Virus record (IMG/VR): IMGVR_UViG_3300031754_000010
Span: 1-38,905 of that record
Reading direction: 5' to 3' (one strand)
DNA length: 38,905 bases
Source of the DNA: a virus
Numbering within the stretch: the first letter of the stretch is position 1; each line of letters opens with the position of its first letter. Shown piece after piece: positions 5,577-21,195 of the stretch. The notes under the pieces were generated by a model. The model saw nothing but the letters and a program-made list of their open reading frames with translations, had not been told where the DNA came from and searched no databases. The translations under genes were made by a program, and so were the position numbers.

Positions 5577-6673
5577 AGAAATGGCACCACAGCTTGTAAC
5601 GCAGTACTACCGGCGCTAGCCAGGTTATTGTATTGCGACAGGATTCCCTGGGCATTCGCGCCAGCGCCTTCAAGCGCAAATCCGCCGGCCTGCTGCGCCG
5701 CATTCTGCATGAGGTTGCCCTGGAACTCGGTTCCTTGCAGGCCTTGCGCCGCGTTAAACAGCGCATTAGAGTTGATGGTGTTTCCGCCGAATAGCCCGGT
5801 GTTGTAAATATCCTGAGCCGCCGGCAGGCCGAATCCAAGTAGGGCCTGATTCGCCTGCCCGGTTCCAGTAAGGCCGGCATTGGTAAGTAGGCCGAGGTTT
5901 CGGGCGGTGACGTTCTGGTTCTCCCCAAATGCGTTCAAGGAATTGTTGAAGGCGCTGTTGTAGAGGCCGCCTGCCGCTCCGACAGCGGCCGTGGTGTTGG
6001 CGAGCCCCGCTTGCTCGTTAGTATTGTAGGTATTCAGCGCGTTCTGGAACTCATTCTGATAGGTCTCGGAGGCCAATCCTGTTGCGTACTTGGCTGCATC
6101 GAGATTCTGATTCGAGCTATTCCCAAGGCCGCTGGCGGAATTCCGGTTCTGAATCGCATTTTCGCCTTGCTGCAAAGCGAACTGATACCCAGGCGTGGCA
6201 GCAAGCTGCTGCATCGTGGGAGCGAAGCTGAATGGATTTTGGGACTGATTGCCTACGAAGTTACCGAGATTGCCGACCGCGGCCTGATACTGTCCCTGCT
6301 GGGGCGCAAACGTGTATGGATTGAACTGCGGATTACTCTGTGCGTAGTTTTGCAGAGTCCCCACACCGGCCTGGCCAGCCTGAATGAAAGGATTGATGTT
6401 TCCTTCAGCCGTTCCCAGGTTTCCGCCCAGCGAATTCAGCGCTATGTTCCCATAGTTGGAAACATCGCCTATGGCCTGTCCCTGCGCCCCAATGACAGCA
6501 TTGGAGTTGCGGTTCAGGGTATCGCCAACCATTCCGGCGGCAGTTTGATTGGCGCCCAATACGCCGTGCTCTGCCGCAACAGCCGCATCCGATACCGCGC
6601 CAGCCGCTCGCCCCGCGCCCAAGAAATTGAAGATGTCTCCGAGAATGCCTGGACTTCCGCCGCTTGGTGACAT
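5573..6673 (-). CDS. DNA transfer/ejection protein, p32-like (366 aa)
   Basis: The N-terminus is Gly/Ala-rich (GILGDIFNFLGAGRAAGAVSDA). A central signature near residues 160-180 (TPGYQFALQQG...NR...SG) is followed by helices with regularly spaced Tyr/Asn (ETYQNEFQNALNTYN). The TPGYQF-L-QG-A--N pattern is typical of the 'DNA transfer protein p32' type found in many podoviruses, where it is thought to be ejected into the host. The product is Asn/Gln/Gly-rich. It sits between the collar-type fibre and the coiled-coil protein, spaced 2 bases from the former. Confidence 0.72.
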   Translation of the reverse strand: MSPSGGSPGILGDIFNFLGAGRAAGAVSDAAVAAEHGVLGANQTAAGMVGDTLNRNSNAVIGAQGQAIGDVSNYGNIALNSLGGNLGTAEGNINPFIQAGQAGVGTLQNYAQSNPQFNPYTFAPQQGQYQAAVGNLGNFVGNQSQNPFSFAPTMQQLAATPGYQFALQQGENAIQNRNSASGLGNSSNQNLDAAKYATGLASETYQNEFQNALNTYNTNEQAGLANTTAAVGAAGGLYNSAFNNSLNAFGENQNVTARNLGLLTNAGLTGTGQANQALLGFGLPAAQDIYNTGLFGGNTINSNALFNAAQGLQGTEFQGNLMQNAAQQAGGFALEGAGANAQGILSQYNNLASAGSTALQAVVPFL

Positions 6674-6675
6674 AG

Positions 6676-7500
6676 TTATTGCCTGTAATAAGCCAACATC
6701 GTGATATTCTGCACTGGATCTGTAGCTGTCGTGGTAGCCTCGGCTGGAACTACATGGGTATGCGTGGAGGACGCCACCGTGGCCCCGCTGCCGCTTTGTA
6801 CAACTGTCGTTGCGCTGGGGCCGCCAGTATTCTCGCTTGGAACCTGGGGAATCCCGGCTAGGTTTATGGTGCCGCCACCATATGCGCCCGTAGCCTTCAT
6901 ATAAGATGGGTTGCCAACAAGATTCGGAACTGTCTCGGTTCCCGTGCCCCCATTGGAGATCAGATAAGACACCGCGGATCCATCGCAGATATGCCAGCCG
7001 ACGCCAGGATTAGATGTGAATAGCTCTATCTTGCGGTTCTTGCCTTCGCCAGGCCCCCAGCCCCAGCCGCCACCGCCCCATTGAAGAATATGCCCGTAAT
7101 CCGACACTGCCGCGAGGAAGCCGGCATCATTGACCCCCAGGTCGGTTGGCAAGGCCGCTTGGGTAAAGAAGCCAGTGCCAGTCAGATAAGCCCAATTTCC
7201 ATTGATAGAGCCATATATTACCGTGCGGTCTGTTTCGTAGAAAAACAGCCCGGTATAGTTAGCCGCGGGATAGTTCGCCAGCCTGTGAGCGTGGGTATCA
7301 TAAATAGCAGGCAACAAGTTGGTGCGTGTCGTTACAGCCTGAAACCATCCAATCCACGGTGGTGCTACACCGGAGAAGTCCAGCGAATCCTTATTTCGCT
7401 GAAGAGCCGGCAAAGCGAACTGTGATCGGTCTACCTCGTGCAGCGGCGTCCGAATGGGAGCGATCGGAACTTGGGCCAGGGGTGCATTTACATTGCTCAT
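6676..7500 (-). CDS. Tail fibre protein with collar-like C-terminal domain (274 aa)
   Basis: The N-terminal 50 residues are Pro-rich and probably attach to the tail hub. The middle holds repeated aromatic segments (GLFFYETDRTVIYGSINGNW) like other phage fibre shafts. The C-terminus has GWHICDGSAV, TVPNL, YMKATGAYGGG and HTHVVP, the order seen in phage tail-collar domains (CDG, PDL/PNL, G, H-H). It probably forms the distal fibre or knob. ATG 7500 overlaps the stop of the gp10-like gene. Confidence 0.75.
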   Translation of the reverse strand: MSNVNAPLAQVPIAPIRTPLHEVDRSQFALPALQRNKDSLDFSGVAPPWIGWFQAVTTRTNLLPAIYDTHAHRLANYPAANYTGLFFYETDRTVIYGSINGNWAYLTGTGFFTQAALPTDLGVNDAGFLAAVSDYGHILQWGGGGWGWGPGEGKNRKIELFTSNPGVGWHICDGSAVSYLISNGGTGTETVPNLVGNPSYMKATGAYGGGTINLAGIPQVPSENTGGPSATTVVQSGSGATVASSTHTHVVPAEATTTATDPVQNITMLAYYRQ

Positions 7501-12687: not shown

Positions 12688-13953
12688 TTACGAGCAGACT
12701 CGGCAGCAGCCCTCGATGTAGACTGGCGCGATTCCATAATAGACATCGAACCTATTGATCCACATGTCGCGGTAGCCGTCGTAAATGCGCACGAAACGCA
12801 GCGAAACGCCGATTTCGTTAGAGCGATCCTCAAAACCCATATCCACTCCCTCTGGCACATCCCCTGGAAACGAAACATAAGCAAAGGCTTCGTGATGGAA
12901 CACAAGGCCCTGAGGAGTGGAAACGCCGGCCAGCGCAGCTTGGCCAGCCGCCGCAGTGTGGTACACGTTGATTAGTGCGCCGCTCGCCGGGGAATTGGTG
13001 ACGTTCTGGAATTGCCCGCTGGGAACAATCGCCGGAGCGATAATCAGCGTGGAGTTGCCGGAACCGTCCGAAGCCGCCGTGGCCTGGATGACAAAATCCT
13101 GGAGAGCGCCGGTAGACTGCCTATTCTGAGGATTGACAGCGAACACACCGGCAATGGTGATGTTGTCGCCAATATTCAGCAGGCCGCTAACGTTGTTAGA
13201 CCAGCCATTAGTGACTAAGCTGGTTCCGGTCTGGCCCGCTCCGTTCACCGCAGGAGTCCCACCTAACGCCCCGATTACCTGAGTCGCTAAGTTGTTTTCC
13301 TGAAACCACTTGTAGCCGAGAGCGTTGGAGATCTGCCCCGGAATCATCACGCCATACTCAACCTGCTTCGAGATCATCGCTGGCGGATTGAAGAATGCCT
13401 TACTAAAGTCCACCCATGCCGTACGCATGTTCGGGGTGATTACGCAGCAGTATTCATCCCTAGGCGGAAAGCCCATTTCAACGAGCCGCTGCCCAGCCTG
13501 TGCGTAGATTTGATAAGCATCTGAGGAACTGAAGCCAGGAGCTGTTCCCGGTGTTCCCACCAGATTGGCCGTATTCTGCTCGGCCACAAGGGCGCACCGC
13601 AGGTCCAGCTTATTGGCTAAAGCGATGCCGTACTTTTCGAGGTAGCGCCGGCGGAAGTCATCCAGTGAAAGAAACTTCTCGGCAGACGAAAACTCGAAGT
13701 CCACACCGGACTGTTGGTTAATGGTGACCGGTACCTCGGTATCGGTGATTCCCTCGGGCTGGTACGCTTGGCCGTCGCGGCCGATGGCGCGCGCTGGCTT
13801 GCGTAGAAAGATCGTGTCACCGATCTTTCCGCCCGCTTTGCCGAATTCTTTTTCCGGGTCGCGGTAAAAATGCGGGAGAACGTGCAACTCGTTTTCGAGG
13901 ACCATCACGGTTTCGCGTGTGATCTCCTGACGAGTCAGTAATTGATTGGCCAT
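12688..13953 (-). CDS. P22 coat-like major capsid protein (421 aa)
   Basis: This is the major head protein of P22 gp5 type (HK97 fold). The N-terminus LTRQEITRETVMVLENELHVLPHFYRDPEKEFGKAGGKIGDTIFLRKPAR is followed by VPVTINQQSGVDFEFSSAEKFLSLDDF (the beta-hinge region). RTAWVDFSKAFFNPPAMISKQ follows, and then an inserted beta domain (about 235-320) where P22 has its I-domain. The C-terminus GVSLRFVRIYDGYRDMWINRFDVYYG is diagnostic. Length is near P22 coat (430). A GGGGGCGGA Shine-Dalgarno precedes ATG 13953. Confidence 0.92.
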   Translation of the reverse strand: MANQLLTRQEITRETVMVLENELHVLPHFYRDPEKEFGKAGGKIGDTIFLRKPARAIGRDGQAYQPEGITDTEVPVTINQQSGVDFEFSSAEKFLSLDDFRRRYLEKYGIALANKLDLRCALVAEQNTANLVGTPGTAPGFSSSDAYQIYAQAGQRLVEMGFPPRDEYCCVITPNMRTAWVDFSKAFFNPPAMISKQVEYGVMIPGQISNALGYKWFQENNLATQVIGALGGTPAVNGAGQTGTSLVTNGWSNNVSGLLNIGDNITIAGVFAVNPQNRQSTGALQDFVIQATAASDGSGNSTLIIAPAIVPSGQFQNVTNSPASGALINVYHTAAAGQAALAGVSTPQGLVFHHEAFAYVSFPGDVPEGVDMGFEDRSNEIGVSLRFVRIYDGYRDMWINRFDVYYGIAPVYIEGCCRVCS

Positions 13954-13993: not shown

Positions 13994-15028
13994 CTAACCG
14001 GCCCGTTGCGCTTTGCGGAGTGCCCGATGCTCTTCCATCGAGCGGGCCTCTGAAGTCGATTTAGCAACAGCGGGTTCGCTGCCGCCAATTGGTCTACTCG
14101 GCGCTGGAATCCGCGAAATCGGAACGGGTGCGGCTGGTTTCCGTGATTCAGGAGGCGTAGCTTGAGAAGGTTTAGCGGGAGCCTTTGATATCAGGCGGGA
14201 TATAAAACGGCACTCATCGTACTGCTCTGCCGGTTGCATCCGCTGAATACCCAGAAGCTCATCGGGGTGATCATGCAGGTAGACCAGAACGTCAACCCAA
14301 TTGGCTACGTTCTTTTCCAGTTCACCGATAACGGTTATTACCTGGCCCTGCTGATTCTTAACGCCGCCGAGCATGACCCCGCCGCCATCTGCTCGCCCGA
14401 AGATATGCTCTTCCGGGTCCACATCCGGCCGATCAGCCCGCAGCTTTTCGATAGCTGCGGTACGGCGTTCCCCTAACGTGCGCGTTTCAGCTTGCCGCTT
14501 TTCTTGCTCGGCAGCCGCCTGGCGCGTCCGTTCGCGTTCCCTATCGCGCAAGTCAATCCACTCTTCGATTAATTCCTCTTGAAGTGCATTGGGACGACGC
14601 TTGAATTGCTCGCGCGCATATTCGGCCATTGTCGGGAGTTTCGCGGCTTCAGCAGCGGGCTTCGGAGGCTCAGGGGCAGGCGGCGAAACCTGGGGTACGC
14701 TCTTTTTCCTGGACTCTTCGAGTTCCTGCTTGATGCGCGTGTTCTCCCGAAGCAGGTCCGCTATGCGGGCTTCGGCGTCTGGCTTGCGCTGTGGGTGCTT
14801 CTTCTCTTCTCGTTTTTCCTGAGGTTGTGAGGATTCCGGGGCCTCGGCGGTTTGCTCTTTAGGCTTTGGTCTGCCTTCAGAGGCGGAAGGAGGTTCCTTT
14901 TCTACCGATGGAGGTACGCCCTCCATCAGCGGCTTGCCTGCTGCCGCGGCTTTGCGAATCTCTTTATGAGCCTCGAAAGTATCGGCTTCGGCGGTAGATT
15001 TAGGAACCTGTAATTCGGTCTTTTCCAT
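13994..15028 (-). CDS. Scaffolding protein (344 aa)
   Basis: A highly charged, Pro/Ala/Glu-rich helical protein between portal and coat genes, the position of P22 gp8. The N-terminal third is disordered (KEPPSASEGRPKPKEQTAE). A coiled coil spans about 85-110. A helix run (RPNALQEELIEEWIDLRDRERERTRQ) and a structured part (NVANWVDVLVYLHDHPDELLGI) follow. The C-terminus is basic (EEHRALRKAQRAG), as needed for coat binding in P22-type scaffolds. The call rests on order and composition. Confidence 0.8.
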   Translation of the reverse strand: MEKTELQVPKSTAEADTFEAHKEIRKAAAAGKPLMEGVPPSVEKEPPSASEGRPKPKEQTAEAPESSQPQEKREEKKHPQRKPDAEARIADLLRENTRIKQELEESRKKSVPQVSPPAPEPPKPAAEAAKLPTMAEYAREQFKRRPNALQEELIEEWIDLRDRERERTRQAAAEQEKRQAETRTLGERRTAAIEKLRADRPDVDPEEHIFGRADGGGVMLGGVKNQQGQVITVIGELEKNVANWVDVLVYLHDHPDELLGIQRMQPAEQYDECRFISRLISKAPAKPSQATPPESRKPAAPVPISRIPAPSRPIGGSEPAVAKSTSEARSMEEHRALRKAQRAG

Positions 15029-15122: not shown

Positions 15123-17183
15123 TTACGCCGCCGCTTGACCTCCAGGCTGCTGCGGCTGCTGCTGGGCCTGATTCATGGCCATCATAATATCCAGCACCTT
15201 TTCAATAGCTTGCATTCGGTGATCGCCCATCATTTCGTGGTGCGCCTGGGCATGTTCGCCCTGCTGCTTCATTAAATCCCCGATGAGCGTTAGCTTGTTG
15301 CGCTGGAGTTCGCCGGCCTGCTTGGTATTCTCCACCGCCAACCGGCCCTGCTGCTCCACCTGCTTGGTCTTAATTGCCATCCCAAGCTGCTGAACTGCCT
15401 GCTGTAATTGCTGCACCTGGGCGCGAAGTTGAACCTCTGCCGGCGAAATTCCTTGCTGCTTGCCCTGCATGGACTGCTGAATTTGTGGCGGCAGTAGCAG
15501 GGTGGCCCGCTCTTCCAGATCGGGGTAGCCCATCAGGTGGAATACGCGGTCTAGGTACATCGGCAGCAATTGCGGATTGGCGGTCACCACTTCAATTAGC
15601 GAGTCTAATTCCTCTTCCACGCGCGCCTGGTAGCCCTTACCGCTAGAAATCTCAACAGAATAGCTGCCAGAGTGTATATCGTGGTGCGGCTGGCCCTCGA
15701 AGCCCGGCACTTGCGGCACGGAGCCGTCTGACATGGCCACTCCGACCGGCTCGAGGCCAGTTTTACCATCCTCGGATCTCGTCCTGACTGCCCGACTGGT
15801 ATCCGTGAGCTTCAAAAACAGATCCAAGCACACGCGCGTCCGGTGCCATTGGGCATGGATCAAATTACCCTCAAAGTGGAAATTATTCAGTTCAGCCTGA
15901 TTATCGCGCCGCTGGATGGCGATTCCCGACACATTAGCCTGGGAAGGGCGCAGCAGGTTATCCGTGTAGCCGCTCGAAGCCTTCGTCTGATCCGACGCCA
16001 CCAATAGCGCCTGCTGGTAGTCCTGTAGCGATGGCTGAGCCGGATTGGGGATAGGTAAGGGCGCCGGCGTTCCCCCAATTGTAACTGGCTCTATCTCCAG
16101 ATAGCGGTGGCTCTTGCCATCGCGCCATTTACCGTCCGAGAATTGGCCTTTGGTGCCGATCAGCTCGCCGCGAGATCCCAGCCGCTCTGCCATCGAGGAA
16201 GCCGCAGCATTAAGAAGTTGCTGTGGGTCACGCTGGTAGCGCAGCGCCGACTTGAACCGCCGCTTGCCTTCAACAACAATCTCTTGGCCAAGTACCGGAA
16301 TGATCGGTATCCATTCCCCAGGCCAGATTTCCTCTTCGAGCTTCTTTTCGCCATCAATCACATCGCGGTGTACGATGCGGACCTCAACCGCCCGCCGGTT
16401 GGTCACATGCGGATGGTCCTCTTCTACGATGCCTTGCGGGAACAACGTATCCTCGAAGTCCTCAAAGCGGCCCAACTCTGGATCTTCGAAGACGATACGG
16501 TCGCGTGTGGTGATCTCGACCCACCAGTATTCCGCGATGCAGACATGATCGTTGTCCGCCCATTCGGGAGCATATTCAGAATCCGCCTGTATCGGCTCGC
16601 CCGGATAGCCTCGTCGCTCATATTCGTCTCGGGTGATCCATTCCCGCGAGAACCAGAACTTCGCATCGCTCCAATCAAATTCCTGCACCGTAGGATCGGG
16701 GTATTGGCTGAGCGGGTCCAGAATGCGCCGGATGCGCGGCTCCTGATTGAATCCCTTCGAGTCGGTATACTCACAGGTTACCCGCTCATAGCCGAAGCCG
16801 CCGGCCGCCGCATACATGATGGCGCAATCATCGGCCACATCCGACTGCGAGGCATACTGCATGTGGCGCAGCTTGCCTTCCAGCATCTCGGCGGTTTCGG
16901 TCTGTCCGTCATCCCCTGGTACAATCTTGGGCTGCGGGCGGTCCTTACGGGCCTGATTGACGATGCCCTGAACAAGCGGGCCACAGCGATCAAATGTCAG
17001 CGCCGGCTTAGGCTCCTCGGCATTGACGCGGTTTGAGTATACAGCCGGATCCCAATGATCTTTAGGGTCGCCACTTACATATTTCAGATCATCCACCCAG
17101 TCCTTACGCGCTGCTGCCAAGCCATCGCGCGAGGCGCGATACCTATCCATTGCGAGCGACATATAGGAGTCTGATCTAGGCAT
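15123..17183 (-). CDS. P22-type portal protein (686 aa)
   Basis: This is the dodecameric DNA-entry ring protein. The start SYMSLAMDRYRASRDGLAAARKDW is followed by a family-typical KPALTFDRCGPLVQGIVNQARKDRPQPKIVPGD. Then come CAIMYAAAGGFGYERV, LSQYPDPTVQEFDWSDAKFWF, RFKSALRYQRDPQQLLNAAASSMAE and SGIAIQRRDNQAELNNFHFEGNL. The C-terminal third is Gln-rich helix (barrel-like), ending QQPQQPGGQAAA. Length is near P22 gp1 (725). I chose ATG 17183 because the longer reading to 17267 runs into the HNH leader and lacks family features; no clear Shine-Dalgarno is seen at either. Confidence 0.88.
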   Translation of the reverse strand: MPRSDSYMSLAMDRYRASRDGLAAARKDWVDDLKYVSGDPKDHWDPAVYSNRVNAEEPKPALTFDRCGPLVQGIVNQARKDRPQPKIVPGDDGQTETAEMLEGKLRHMQYASQSDVADDCAIMYAAAGGFGYERVTCEYTDSKGFNQEPRIRRILDPLSQYPDPTVQEFDWSDAKFWFSREWITRDEYERRGYPGEPIQADSEYAPEWADNDHVCIAEYWWVEITTRDRIVFEDPELGRFEDFEDTLFPQGIVEEDHPHVTNRRAVEVRIVHRDVIDGEKKLEEEIWPGEWIPIIPVLGQEIVVEGKRRFKSALRYQRDPQQLLNAAASSMAERLGSRGELIGTKGQFSDGKWRDGKSHRYLEIEPVTIGGTPAPLPIPNPAQPSLQDYQQALLVASDQTKASSGYTDNLLRPSQANVSGIAIQRRDNQAELNNFHFEGNLIHAQWHRTRVCLDLFLKLTDTSRAVRTRSEDGKTGLEPVGVAMSDGSVPQVPGFEGQPHHDIHSGSYSVEISSGKGYQARVEEELDSLIEVVTANPQLLPMYLDRVFHLMGYPDLEERATLLLPPQIQQSMQGKQQGISPAEVQLRAQVQQLQQAVQQLGMAIKTKQVEQQGRLAVENTKQAGELQRNKLTLIGDLMKQQGEHAQAHHEMMGDHRMQAIEKVLDIMMAMNQAQQQPQQPGGQAAA

Positions 17184-17237
17184 AGGATATAATTGAAGGG
17201 GCCGCAGCTCTGACGAAGCTACGACCCCAAGCACCAT

Positions 17238-17254
17238 GAGCCTCAGGAGGGCTC
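17238..17254 (+). promoter_or_regulatory. Hairpin holding the HNH ribosome binding site
   Basis: GAGCC (17238-17242) and GGCTC (17250-17254) can pair around the loop TCAGGAG, so the strong Shine-Dalgarno AGGAGG (17245-17250) sits in the loop and stem edge, 6 bases before ATG 17257. Sequestration of the site in hairpins is known for homing endonuclease genes in T4. Here it is only a structural inference. Confidence 0.4.
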
Positions 17255-17256
17255 GA

Positions 17257-17763
17257 ATGATGCCCAAGCAATGTTATCAGTTTCTGCTCGATGCCATCGC
17301 AAGCCCCGGTGATGCGTGTATTGAGTGGCCCTATGGATTTTTCGGGAGCGGCTATGGGCAGATCCATATTAACCAGATTTCCTATGGCGTCCATGTTGTC
17401 GCTTACGTCATAACCCACGGTCTCAATATTCCTTTGCCCGCAGGAACCTTTGTCTTGCACGAATGCGACAATCGGAAATGCTTCAATCCCAGGCACCTGA
17501 GAGCAGGAACGCCCAAGGATAATTGGCGGGATGCCGTCGATAAAGGCCGCATGACTGTGGGGGTCATCGATAACGGGATTAAGGGGACGGCTCACAGGAA
17601 TTCCAAGCTTACTGATGACGATGTGCGATTCATCCGAAAACACTATGTCCCGTATGGTAATAATTCCGAATTCAATACAGTGGGGCTCGCCAGACGCTTC
17701 GGAGTTTCCCAGGGATTGATAGCGCATATCATCAACAGACGGAATTGGACTCATGTTCAATAG
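17257..17763 (+). CDS. Free-standing HNH homing endonuclease with C-terminal HTH (168 aa)
   Basis: The HNH_3-type core is FVLHECDNRKCFNPRHLRAG (H68, C70, C75, N77, H80), followed by TPKDNWRDAVDKGR, a very common phage homing nuclease signature. The C-terminus has KLTDDDVRFIRKHY and VGLARRFGVSQGLIAHIINRRNW, a helix-turn-helix that probably directs DNA binding. Start ATG 17257 is fixed by AGGAGG just upstream. It is inserted on the plus strand between portal and an upstream small gene, overlapping that gene's end by 7 bases. No NUMOD domain is present, so it is unrelated to the HNH at 9140 except in the core. Confidence 0.92.
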   Translation: MMPKQCYQFLLDAIASPGDACIEWPYGFFGSGYGQIHINQISYGVHVVAYVITHGLNIPLPAGTFVLHECDNRKCFNPRHLRAGTPKDNWRDAVDKGRMTVGVIDNGIKGTAHRNSKLTDDDVRFIRKHYVPYGNNSEFNTVGLARRFGVSQGLIAHIINRRNWTHVQ

Positions 17764-18005
17764 CTGGAATCTTCTTCGTCTTTTTCTTCTTGCTCTGGCT
17801 CTCCTTTGAAATTCCCGGCAAGATGTTTAGATATGTGAGCTTGCAAATCATCCATGCTACCGTGGTGTTTCTTTTCATGCTCCATATCGTACATGGGTCC
17901 GCCGCCCTGGCCACTGCGCTTAGTCTCGTGCGTCGTGTGACTCATCACTCCGCTCTTGCCGTCTAGCGGCTCAAGGCGGATTTCAGCTATTTTTGCTTTG
18001 GCCAT
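17757..18005 (-). CDS. Small His-rich, acidic-tailed protein (82 aa)
   Basis: MAKAKIAEIRLEPLDGKSGVM..., then His-rich helices (MEHEKKHHGSMDDLQAHISKHL) and a strongly acidic tail. ATG 18005 has AAAGGAG about 9 bases upstream, so I reject the longer reading to 18071. TAATG links it to the preceding gene. The pattern resembles small phage proteins encoded near portal and terminase. The function is unknown. Confidence 0.65.
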   Translation of the reverse strand: MAKAKIAEIRLEPLDGKSGVMSHTTHETKRSGQGGGPMYDMEHEKKHHGSMDDLQAHISKHLAGNFKGEPEQEEKDEEDSSY

Positions 18006-18199
18006 TAGCTTGGCTCCTTTATCACAACTCTGAACTTCTGAGTATGAGGTATCGGTATCCCCGTGCGCCAATCCCGCGCAGGATTCCCTTCGCTCCCCAA
18101 GGTAATGATGTCACCCTCGTTCAGGCCAGGCGTACCGGCTGGAATATCAATCGGCAGAATGTCAGACGAAGGCGGCGTTTTTATTGCTTGATTGGCCAT
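18005..18199 (-). CDS. Hypothetical small protein (64 aa)
   Basis: MANQAIKTPPSSDILPIDIPAG..., with a beta-type C-terminus (GIPIPHTQKFRVVIKEP). A clear GAAGGAG precedes ATG 18199. It overlaps the end of the GroES-like gene by 19 bases. It has no membrane segment or known motif. It may work with the co-chaperonin or portal only in the sense of sharing an operon. Confidence 0.62.
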   Translation of the reverse strand: MANQAIKTPPSSDILPIDIPAGTPGLNEGDIITLGSEGNPARDWRTGIPIPHTQKFRVVIKEPS

Positions 18200-18696
18200 T
18201 GTGGCTCCTTCTCAATCACTGCTAAAACGTGTTGCTCAAGATGCGCGAAGACGTATTCCTCGCCGTCGATGACAGTATTGTTGGCTGGTGCCCGGTGGTA
18301 GGCAACGATATCACCCACTTTCAAAGGCATCTCGGCATAAGTCTTTTCCCCAAGGGTCATGTCGTTCCCGCAGTTGGGACATTTCCTGTTAATAGACCAA
18401 GAGCGAGTTCCGCTCGGGTGCATATCAGTCTTCACTAAACGGGTCACGTAACCACTGCAATCAGGCGTATCCATGCAATACAGCCCCAGCATTTGATCCC
18501 CAGGCCCAACCGCCATCACCTCACCGTACTTAGTGCCCTCCACGCCCTTATTACGCCACTGCGGGCCGTATATGGGGCTGCAGCCCTCTAGCCGGTGCGA
18601 TTCGGCCTCGCCGAGACGACGCACTAGGACAAAATCGCCCATCGGCTTTACGGAGGCCAGTTCGGCGGGGACATTGGGATGAAGCGGGGGTTTCAG
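18181..18696 (-). CDS. GroES-like (cpn10) co-chaperonin with inserted zinc knuckle (about 171 aa)
   Basis: The fold signature is VKPMGDFVLVRRLGE at the N-terminus (as GroES 'IRPLHDRVIVKR'), then YGEVMAVGPG, then MPLKVGDIVAYHR, and EEYVFAHLEQHVLAVIE at the C-terminus. Between the second and third blocks about 55 residues are inserted with Cys56, Cys62, Cys88 and Cys91 (counted from ATG 18642), a likely zinc site. It may cap host GroEL to help fold coat protein, like T4 gp31. The first ATG (18642) lies inside the conserved N-terminal strand. CTG 18696, overlapping the previous stop as CTGA with GAGGT just upstream, restores it. The exact start is uncertain. Confidence 0.78.
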   Translation of the reverse strand: MKPPLHPNVPAELASVKPMGDFVLVRRLGEAESHRLEGCSPIYGPQWRNKGVEGTKYGEVMAVGPGDQMLGLYCMDTPDCSGYVTRLVKTDMHPSGTRSWSINRKCPNCGNDMTLGEKTYAEMPLKVGDIVAYHRAPANNTVIDGEEYVFAHLEQHVLAVIEKEPQWPIKQ

Positions 18697-18950
18697 ATTG
18701 ACCTCATCTTTTCGTTGTGCGAATGCTGGTTGACGATATTGTGATGCCCGGCCGAGTGGCTTTTGTTGGCCTTACGAAATATCTTGGCCTCGGTGGACTT
18801 GGAGATGACGCCCTTATGCTCCATCATGGAAGCTCGCGCCTTCGCGTTCTTCCGGTGGCTCTCATCCATAATTGGATATTTGCGTTGCGCTGGCAGAGCA
18901 AAGGCGCTATCCGGCAAAGCATTGCGCTCTTTGGTGGTCAATTTCGCCAT
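18693..18950 (-). CDS. Small DUF6582-like protein with GHHN C-terminal tag (85 aa)
   Basis: MAKLTTKERNALPDSAFALP, then KYPIMDESHRKNAKARASMM and STEAKIFRKANK, is a pattern I know from many small phage proteins near head genes (DUF6582-like; 'ALP-s-FA-P-...YPI-D--HA-NA-ARAS'). Its usual C-terminus is replaced or extended by GHHNIVNQHSHNEKM in the last 18 residues. The same tag ends the proteins at 18951-19253 and 20935-21159. ATG 18950 directly follows the previous stop. Confidence 0.75.
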   Translation of the reverse strand: MAKLTTKERNALPDSAFALPAQRKYPIMDESHRKNAKARASMMEHKGVISKSTEAKIFRKANKSHSAGHHNIVNQHSHNEKMRSI

Positions 18951-19253
18951 TTAGGTGTGCTCAAGCTTGTGCGCATGCGAATGGGGATTCACCACATTGT
19001 GATGGCCATACTTATTGGCGTGCTGGCCCTTGCTAGGTGGCGTATCGCCGCTCATGCGGTTATCCCGATTGGACTTGACCTCCCCACGTTCGGCCATCAT
19101 GACCGGCTCTATGCTGTGCTTGCTGGCCAGCTTGACTTTGGCGCCGTAGGTCTTACCGGATTTCATCCCGCCGGCCATGCGCTTGGTGTTCTCTTTTATC
19201 TCATCGCCGTGTTTCAGCATCACCGGCTCTGCTTCATGCATCATTCGTGCCAT
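18951..19253 (-). CDS. Small His/Met-rich protein with internal repeat and GHHN C-terminal tag (100 aa)
   Basis: The body contains an imperfect duplication: EPVMLKHGDEIKEN (residues 9-22) and EPVMMAERGEVKSN (49-62), each followed by a basic stretch and RM-G. The last 18 residues (83-100) are GHHNVVNPHSHAHKL plus three residues, the tag shared with two neighbours. It has six or more Met and many His. There is no signal peptide. The function is unknown. It is adjacent to the 85-residue protein, with which it probably shares translation. Confidence 0.68.
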   Translation of the reverse strand: MARMMHEAEPVMLKHGDEIKENTKRMAGGMKSGKTYGAKVKLASKHSIEPVMMAERGEVKSNRDNRMSGDTPPSKGQHANKYGHHNVVNPHSHAHKLEHT

Positions 19254-19256
19254 TTT

Positions 19257-19445
19257 CTAGCCTTTCTGTTTTAATTTTATACCTAGGATTCGAATAATTC
19301 TACGATCGGCGTGGCCAGGCTTGGCATTTGGATGCGATGCTCTCATTAGGATACGTTGGCCATTCGCAGTCCACTCAGTAAGCTTCTGTCCTTGGTCCTT
19401 GCTGTCATGTCGCCATCGAACAATCGGCTTGATTAACTCATCCAT
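19257..19445 (-). CDS. Hypothetical basic protein (62 aa)
   Basis: MDELIKPIVRWRHDSKDQGQ... ends in a Lys-rich tail (RIIRILGIKLKQKG). It overlaps the end of the terminase gene by 13 bases and has a purine-rich GGGGG upstream of ATG 19445. No motif is recognised. Confidence 0.58.
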   Translation of the reverse strand: MDELIKPIVRWRHDSKDQGQKLTEWTANGQRILMRASHPNAKPGHADRRIIRILGIKLKQKG

Positions 19446-20935
19446 GCTGAATGCCCCCTGGGTGCCTGCGATATATACTGCCCCCGCGACTCCGAACGAT
19501 GCACGGCCACCGGCTGCGCGAATGTCAGGGCCAGAGCGTCAGCGTCATCTGGCGAAGCGATGCCGCGATCACGCATCGAATCCTTGCTCTCCACTACCAG
19601 CGCACCATCGCCGCCAAGCTTGTGATGGAAGCCGGGGCCGATGAGATCAGCCGCCAACTTCTTATCCTCTTTGTCGATTGCGCCTTTGCCCAGCCAATCG
19701 CGCATCTGCTTGGCCCACATATAGGCCCGCATATTGGCGAACTCCCGGTCTGGCGACTTTCCACCGAAACTGATCTCTACCACGTTGCGATAGCCCAATG
19801 CCTTCAGCCGCTCCACAATAGGGGCTCCAAAGGCCGAATCCACGAACATCTGCGTAATCCGGTGAGTGGGCCGGTTATCGCTCAAGGCCTCCGCCAGAAT
19901 CGTAACCATCGTTTCCCGGTCAATACGACTACCAGCCGCCCGAATGGGCTCAGGGACCAGAATTCCTGGACGCGCGTCCAAGCCCCGCCTGAATCGCACC
20001 ACGAACCAGGCCGAGCCTCCATCAGGTACATCAACCCCCGCGATAAGCGGATCATTTGGCAGTGTTTGCACATTACGGTTCTGTGCCGCCTCCACCACAT
20101 CGCGGCCAATAAGCTGCAGCTCAGCTTGTTTCGGAGGCATACCCAGGATACGAACTCGGACGTAATCGGAATCAATTCCGTGGTCCTCAATCCATTCTGT
20201 ATGTAGTCGATGGTTGGGGAACTTGCATTTTCTGGCATCAATAGACCTCGTATTCCACCTGTGAGCCTCAGTTCCGAAACAGGCCTCGTAGAACCAGCCG
20301 GTATTGCGTGTGGGATTGCCGGCGGCAAAGAACATCGGCTCGCCATCAGTCAGGCCGGCCATAGCAACTTCTTTGATCTTGTCAGGAATCAGGCTCGATT
20401 CATCCATTAGAAAGAAACTGGTAGAGTTCTTGTTGTGCTGGCCGGCGAACGCTTCCGAGTTCTCCTCGGCGCAGGTGATTGGCACGCTAAACCAGGATTC
20501 AGGCTCGGATACCGCCCGGCACTTACTGCCCGTCACCTCGAACCAATCCTTGCAGCACAACAACTTATGCCACTTCTGAATCTCAGCCCACGTGGTTGTC
20601 TCAAGCTGCGTGTAGGTATTAGCGGTAACGCGGCCCTTGGCGCCCGGCCGGGTGCACATGATCCACCAGTGAAGCCATGCGAACAGGGTTGACTTCCCAA
20701 TGCCGTGTCCGCTGGCTACCGACATCAGGATCGGATCGGCCGGATTCTTTCCGTCGAAATGGCGCGCTGCTACCACATTTCCAAGATCCACTAGAAACTG
20801 CCGCTGCCATTCGTCCGGCCCAGGCTCCTTATCAAGCACTCCTTTACCCCATGGGAAGCAATCCAGCACGAATCCCAGCGGATCGTCCGTGTACTCAGCG
20901 ATCAGTTCCACCAGGGGATTGGGCGCAGCTGTCAT
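19433..20935 (-). CDS. terL: Terminase large subunit (500 aa)
   Basis: This is the packaging ATPase and nuclease. Walker A is SGHGIGKS (75-82) and Walker B FFLMDE (174-179, D178 E179). The coupling motif is FAAGNPTR (203-210). The nuclease part has AGVDVPDGG (D302), MFVDSAFGAPI (near 370) and SPDDADALALT near the C-terminus, giving the three acidic motifs of the RNase H-like fold. Length is normal for the family. ATG 20935 is joined to the previous stop as TAATG. A small subunit is not recognised next to it; the gene at 29221-29505 is a weak candidate. Confidence 0.94.
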   Translation of the reverse strand: MTAAPNPLVELIAEYTDDPLGFVLDCFPWGKGVLDKEPGPDEWQRQFLVDLGNVVAARHFDGKNPADPILMSVASGHGIGKSTLFAWLHWWIMCTRPGAKGRVTANTYTQLETTTWAEIQKWHKLLCCKDWFEVTGSKCRAVSEPESWFSVPITCAEENSEAFAGQHNKNSTSFFLMDESSLIPDKIKEVAMAGLTDGEPMFFAAGNPTRNTGWFYEACFGTEAHRWNTRSIDARKCKFPNHRLHTEWIEDHGIDSDYVRVRILGMPPKQAELQLIGRDVVEAAQNRNVQTLPNDPLIAGVDVPDGGSAWFVVRFRRGLDARPGILVPEPIRAAGSRIDRETMVTILAEALSDNRPTHRITQMFVDSAFGAPIVERLKALGYRNVVEISFGGKSPDREFANMRAYMWAKQMRDWLGKGAIDKEDKKLAADLIGPGFHHKLGGDGALVVESKDSMRDRGIASPDDADALALTFAQPVAVHRSESRGQYISQAPRGHSAWMS

Positions 20936-21159
20936 TAGTTATTCCTGAGTTTCCTCGCGTGGCTGGCCTTGTTGACTACATTGTGGTGGCCGCTGTCGAT
21001 GTGCTGCTTTACATCACGCTCATGCTTGGCTTCGAGCTTGGCCCCCTTCGCGGTCTCTTTCGATCCGCGCATATAGCCCTTGGCGTTCAAGGTTCCATAG
21101 ACCGCGTGCGGATTATTGGGATATTCACGCTTTAACTTATCTTCCAGGAATTTTGGCAT
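20935..21159 (-). CDS. Small conserved phage protein with GHHN C-terminal tag (74 aa)
   Basis: MPKFLEDKLKREYPNNPHAVYGTLNAKGYMRGSKETAKG is a pattern common in phage genomes ('F--KLK-EYG-N--AYGTLNK-G-M-GNK-T-KG') next to terminase genes. The final 18 residues (57-74) carry GHHNVVNKASHARKL, the tag shared with two proteins downstream of terL. I chose ATG 21159 because GGAG lies 8 bases upstream. The function is unknown. The body differs completely from the other two tagged proteins. Confidence 0.72.
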   Translation of the reverse strand: MPKFLEDKLKREYPNNPHAVYGTLNAKGYMRGSKETAKGAKLEAKHERDVKQHIDSGHHNVVNKASHARKLRNN

Positions 21160-21195
21160 TCCATTTCTCCAAATAGGCAAGCATAGCGAGGCATT

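Follow-up and report, generated by a model that had tools for sequence, protein, structure and literature searches.

The virus record IMGVR_UViG_3300031754_000010 (38,905 bases, analysed at full length and called the window here) has a head module on its minus strand, in which three small proteins, A, B and C, end in a common 18-residue tail, GHHN[IV]VNxxSHxxK[LM]xxx. Examination of their relatives in other phages showed that such a motif is shared within a genome and different between genomes, that it is mainly C-terminal and kept at the protein level, and that it is found on small proteins of the head module. From the sequences, we propose that the common C-terminus may be an unfolded docking peptide that brings unrelated small proteins to one lineage-specific head-assembly partner, a reading to which we assign a probability of roughly 0.45.

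The coordinates, lengths and tails of A, B and C, all on the minus strand, are as an earlier note on this DNA had described them (Table 1). The three tails align in register and are identical at 10 (A-B), 10 (A-C) and 12 (B-C) of the 18 positions, and none of 100,000 shuffles attained any of the three pairwise scores. The pattern GHHNxVN occurs three times in the record, each time on the minus strand, and is absent from a reversed control of the same 38,905 bases. A profile of the three tails, run on the 459 open reading frames (ORFs) of the window, scored 74-79 on A, B and C and at most 23 on any other, and no fourth carrier of the tail was found with it. The codons had been said to differ, and they do: a changed codon encodes 4 of 10 (A-B), 4 of 10 (A-C) and 8 of 12 (B-C) of the identical tail residues. 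The GHHN tail was not found beyond the window phage. A DNA search of viral contigs for GHHNVVN, in which the isoleucine form was not included, returned five matches, none of which had the remainder of the motif; the match in L204 (phages and loci are cited by our own handles) begins 19 residues upstream of the stop codon but lies within a 44-residue stretch.

The body of A matches phrog_16160 (E=2.4e-23, residues 1-63) and is weakly similar to DUF6582 (PF20223, E=1.2e-4), with 22.7 bits against a gathering threshold of 27.3 that was not reached. Relatives of A were found in 18 phage records, and in the four of these that were inspected (Tunturi_1, phiKX1, MY01 and SP154) there was no tail common to neighbours. 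In L209 (20001-20201) and L210 (6001-6210), two Schitoviridae phages, the A-family gene directly follows a spanin/lysis gene and overlaps its end, and the proteins end in KANKVLYG with no tail. B is without a family and had no viral relative in the searches made. C had no Pfam match (E<=1) and no convincing PHROGs match. Its relatives are common in environmental viral contigs, with 49 loci in a first search and 80 of 279 relatives retained in a larger one, and occur at only eight loci in bacterial and archaeal genomes; no match to the family was obtained in 50,697 phage records at E<=0.01, or at E<=1 with a typed consensus. In L047 (2866-3393) the C-family protein runs on into a longer protein, the second part of which looks secreted.

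No match was found between the bodies of A and B or of A and C, and a comparison of the A and C family profiles by hhalign gave no match (probability 0.1). The bodies of B and C gave a weak match (E=0.012, composition correction off) that leaves slight doubt on their non-paralogy. An iterative search with the A family reached the C family through the common tail, and it was rerun with the body only. The two outcomes that the earlier note had named as fatal to its claim, a tail on all homologues and full-length paralogy of the three proteins, were not observed: in other phages the GHHN tail is missing from the A and C homologues, and the three bodies are not paralogous; full-length paralogy was rejected on the A-B, A-C and A/C profile comparisons, in which body homology was not found. 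The comparisons support a protein-level module rather than whole-protein descent. In the AlphaFold2 model of A, the predicted local distance difference test (pLDDT) score is 85-93 in most of the body and about 47-51 in residues 71-85, which lie in the tag and are predicted to be disordered. In the model of C the tag prolongs a long helix at lower confidence (pLDDT 64-67). In structure comparison neither C nor A resembled a solved structure at E<=0.001, and sequence searches of the PDB gave nothing convincing.

The A and C relatives of other phages, and further small neighbours, often end in a shared tag that is distinct for the phage in question. These tags include LGSGSHGFM[RH]HGAKKY in L023, LRALGG in L118 and L124 with the related LRV[HF]GG in L052, SALYGD or SLLYGD on three proteins of L158, AFYG[DE] on three proteins of L056, RRKKKMKGM[GA]L on two proteins of L126 with a similar third, LG[AS]NLMKG in L143, [LM]T[RK]LMGR in L184, SHPGM[RK]Y in L116, a GDGxGH-type tail on three proteins of G001 including A, and a KKxxMAxKM-like tail on six proteins of G050. 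The number of distinct bodies that carry one tag is three in the window, G001, L158 and L056 and six in G050. The tags mostly end at the stop codon, and in G026 two carriers are about 17 kb apart. Sharing of this kind was seen at about 25 loci, as counted by eye and post hoc, some of which are near copies. The idea of a modular tag therefore survives in part: the module is found at the protein level on unrelated bodies, but a single transferable GHHN tag is not what is seen, as each lineage has its own tag in the phages where sharing occurs.

The exchange of tags on conserved bodies was examined with a matrix of A and C tails from 10 genomes that have both C and a tail-bearing A; L052, near copies (L124) and genomes with a tailless A (e.g., L072, L079 and L142) were left out. 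The within-genome scores were 63, 41, 36, 52, 44, 91, 29, 16, 12 and 22, and the between-genome scores had a mean of 14 and a maximum of 26. The sum of the diagonal was attained in none of 200,000 permutations, and the within-genome score exceeded every between-genome score in 7 of the 10 genomes, or in 7 of 11 with the addition of L052, where the match to the tail of A lies in a neighbour other than C. The C bodies of L118 and L023 are 91% identical over their first 46 residues, and their tags are unrelated, each being matched by the A protein of its own genome. Of the 136 tag residues that are identical within the 11 genomes compared for codon use, 76 are encoded by different codons, and the tags are therefore not recent DNA copies.

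In the planned test, the C tail at each of 84 loci was compared with the C-termini of proteins of fewer than 200 residues encoded within 3 kb. The summed score was 1756, which none of 20,000 permutations of the loci attained (maximum 1530), and shuffled C tails gave a mean of 1390 with a standard deviation of 27 and a maximum of 1444 (100 shuffles). When the C tails were compared with the N-termini or the middles of the same neighbours, the sums were 1392 and 1417, which is the level of the shuffles. Composition does not account for the signal, as these controls show. Among the loci that are individually significant, the pairs L118/L124, L131/L139 and L035/L158 are related.

It is proposed that a short linear motif would direct several small proteins, unrelated in body and mostly basic, to a single partner of the same phage, with the motif as the putative binding site for one reader and a head-assembly protein as the likely reader. 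Every phage lineage would have its own motif-reader pair, and the bodies would therefore be conserved while the motif changes jointly on all carriers. The purpose may be loading, with the procapsid or the packaging complex receiving the small proteins inside it or on its surface. We prefer the procapsid, and consider that small basic proteins are probably loaded into it, in view of the small size and basic character of the carriers, their place in the head module and the precedents of phage T4 and the encapsulins, in which short terminal peptides bring divergent proteins into HK97-fold shells. The docking role suggested in the earlier note fits the data as far as the sequences go. A more specific version, which we hold only tentatively, is an address code in which one head-assembly receptor per lineage reads a C-terminal password that is changed in concert on all clients together with the receptor, thereby re-addressing conserved families.

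Two known systems can be compared with these tags. The capsid targeting sequence (CTS) of T4 IPI-IPIII is a short terminal peptide on divergent small proteins that is sufficient for placement in the head (PMC9026906); it is N-terminal and is cut by the prohead protease gp21. A, B and C likewise carry a common short terminal peptide on divergent small bodies. Unlike the N-terminal CTS, the window tag is C-terminal, as in most carriers, and the tags described here vary between lineages on conserved bodies and are known from sequence alone. The cargo-loading peptides (CLPs) of encapsulins are about 10 residues long, mostly C-terminal, and found on various cargo proteins encoded beside the gene for an HK97-fold shell, where they bind a pocket on the inner shell surface (PMC7355545). 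The resemblance lies in a short, mostly C-terminal peptide on several carriers of a head module, which in the window includes a P22-like coat gene; the differences are that the shell would be a phage coat, that the carriers are small proteins with no assigned function, that the motif is lineage-specific and that the reader is only a candidate. The tags would thus work like the T4 CTS or the encapsulin CLP, and neither family membership nor common descent is claimed. The scaffolding protein of P22 docks to the coat inside the procapsid through a basic C-terminal segment. The presumed scaffold of the window differs in that it has a terminal motif of its own, which is repeated at both ends and is unlike the GHHN tag.

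Several results weigh against the proposed docking peptide. Only 18 of the 84 loci reached an empirical p<=0.05 (about 4 are expected by chance), and we distrust three of the 18, L109, L128 and L150, where the match is short and rich in lysine. When the tails of all genes were compared within and between genomes, no excess was found. This null result is probably due to homologous genes in the between-genome pairs and to spurious ORFs in two of the three tests, and for these reasons C was tested against its neighbours within 3 kb. When 28 further C tails were scanned singly, C was the sole carrier or the second carrier was doubtful in 26, the clear exceptions being L159 and L174. Sharing is a minority pattern among the 84 loci. 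In several lysine-rich lineages (G047, G049, G050, L057 and L174), copies of the motif are also internal or near the N-terminus, as would be expected of a linear motif more than of a signal bound strictly to the C-terminus. Finally, comparison with the identity of TerL, portal, coat and scaffold singles out no reader, and the coats of L118 and L106 are 87% identical while their tails differ, although the tail of L106 is not established as a shared tag. This last pair would speak against a simple coat reader.

The search for a reader used tags that were picked after inspection of the data, both in a scan of 22 records and in the comparison of validated tags with head proteins. In the scan, portal, coat, scaffold and terminase scored below the carriers, several of the records being fragments without some of these genes; the margin was small for the weakest carriers in G044 and G050, where larger proteins came within 5 units. 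A 469-residue protein of G016 that ends in GTSIASAMQGNQ resembles the tag of that record, GRSIGAAMRGR (30 versus 54 for identity), and is regarded as a lead. Spearman coefficients between C-tail similarity and head-protein identity, in the family tested, were 0.01 for TerL and 0.17-0.20 for portal, coat and scaffold. Validated tags remain related between L052 and L118, whose portals are 57% identical, and between L156 and L130 (47%); they are unrelated where coats are at most 59% and portals at most 34% identical. The terminases of L118 and L106 fall into different clusters, and the window and L184 have TerL proteins that are 51% identical and unrelated tags. From this pattern of relatedness it follows that the tags travel with the head module, with no protein singled out.

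The same comparisons bear on an unlikely alternative, in which the tag would dock its carriers on the packaging machine (TerL, TerS or portal), on the outside of the capsid, where they would serve as accessory packaging factors and not as cargo. A, B and C surround terL in the window, L118 and L106 differ in TerL cluster and tail despite their similar coats, and L120 and L106 have the same tail and TerL type (63%) with scaffolds that are just 36% identical. The pair of the window and L184 argues against it, as do L063 and L072, whose TerL proteins are 74% identical and whose tails differ (the tail of L072 is unshared). The portals are 58% identical in L118/L106, as in L120/L106, and thus do not discriminate.

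Less likely again is that the 3' end of one gene was passed to adjacent genes by partial duplication or by recombination, and that the tails are relics or linkers with no partner in common. Duplication is a likely route by which the tags spread: carriers often adjoin each other, and in L052 (2816-3327) A and a neighbour share, upstream of the tag, a second segment, [KR]R[VI]GEQHGP[VI]DD[ML], which suggests a partial duplication there. It would account for the origin of the tags but not for their maintenance, since synonymous positions are widely altered with the residues kept (the 76 of 136 above), related tags persist at the portal identities of 57% and 47%, and the two G026 carriers are far apart. 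It is improbable that the tails bind one another and that A, B and C co-assemble without an outside reader. The same peptide on all carriers is what homotypic association would predict, but several tags are strongly basic (RRKKKMKGMAL, KKREMAEKIK), which disfavours self-pairing, and C is apparently the sole carrier in many genomes. A metal-binding or chaperonin-docking element, which the histidine-rich window tag and the GroES-like gene next to A had suggested, is very improbable as a general role: many tags are histidine-free (RRKKKMKGMAL, SALYGD, LG[AS]NLMKG), and chaperonin docking is not general because Cpn10 matches were found in only 6 of 21 tag-bearing records (one a 6.1-Mb cellular record), the other 15, which include the 40-42 kb G011 and G043, having none at E<=0.01, with some of the 21 being short fragments.

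The principle of a targeting peptide is already known; its concerted change across conserved clients appears to be new, and in the open-licence literature searched we found no account of unrelated phage proteins that share a lineage-specific tag. If docking by lineage-specific tags is correct, clients of head assembly could be found from sequence alone, as a small protein ending in the tag of its genome would be a candidate cargo. It would also give a role to the phrog_16160/DUF6582-like and MPKFLEDKLK families, which have no assigned function, provide natural pairs of peptide and receptor, orthogonal to one another, with which proteins could be loaded into capsids, and reveal how a targeting code can change while its clients stay conserved.

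The features of the window are collected in Table 1. The start of C was taken as the ATG at 21159, a longer alternative being the TTG at 21180. The position of A, B and C around terL and a Cpn10/GroES-like gene was confirmed together with the families of these two genes.

Table 1. Tagged proteins, their tags and other head-module features of the window.
Feature	Coordinates	Strand	Description
Protein A	18693..18950	-	85 aa; phrog_16160-family body and C-terminal tag
Tag of A, GHHNIVNQHSHNEKMRSI	18696..18749	-	
Protein B	18951..19253	-	100 aa; C-terminal tag
Tag of B, GHHNVVNPHSHAHKLEHT	18954..19007	-	
Protein C	20935..21159	-	74 aa; MPKFLEDKLKxEY family and C-terminal tag
Tag of C, GHHNVVNKASHARKLRNN	20938..20991	-	
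terL (terminase large subunit), untagged, between C and B/A	19433..20935	-	phrog_2, E=3.4e-29
Cpn10/GroES-like protein, untagged, downstream of A	18181..18642	-	PF00166, E=2.8e-6
P22-like portal, candidate reader	15123..17267	-	PF16510, E=7.9e-110
Presumed scaffold, candidate reader	13994..15028	-	named by position between portal and coat; no family match
P22-like major coat protein, candidate reader	12688..13953	-	PF11651, E=6.8e-23

The repeated motif of the presumed scaffold lies near both of its ends as STAEADTFEAHKEIRKAAAAG and STSEARSMEEHRALRKAQRAG, and the scaffold candidates of G011 and L052 likewise have N- and C-terminal motifs that are similar to each other. In L085 (1200-1655 and 1656-2570), a 304-residue presumed scaffold and the adjoining 151-residue protein have a common C-terminal motif, TDEYxxxRxxQxRxG, and the 151-residue protein is possibly a second client of the partner of the scaffold. 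A small protein at 17757-18005 of the window resembles, by eye, a histidine-rich module that some phages encode as a separate protein near C and that others (L032, L034, L046 and L048) carry as a C-terminal fusion to C. Additionally, G055 (6584-6769) and G066 (1238-1423) have, over and above the full coat gene, a 141-residue frame that matches the coat protein of the window at residues ~257-321 (E=4.9e-6 and 1.2e-5, respectively).

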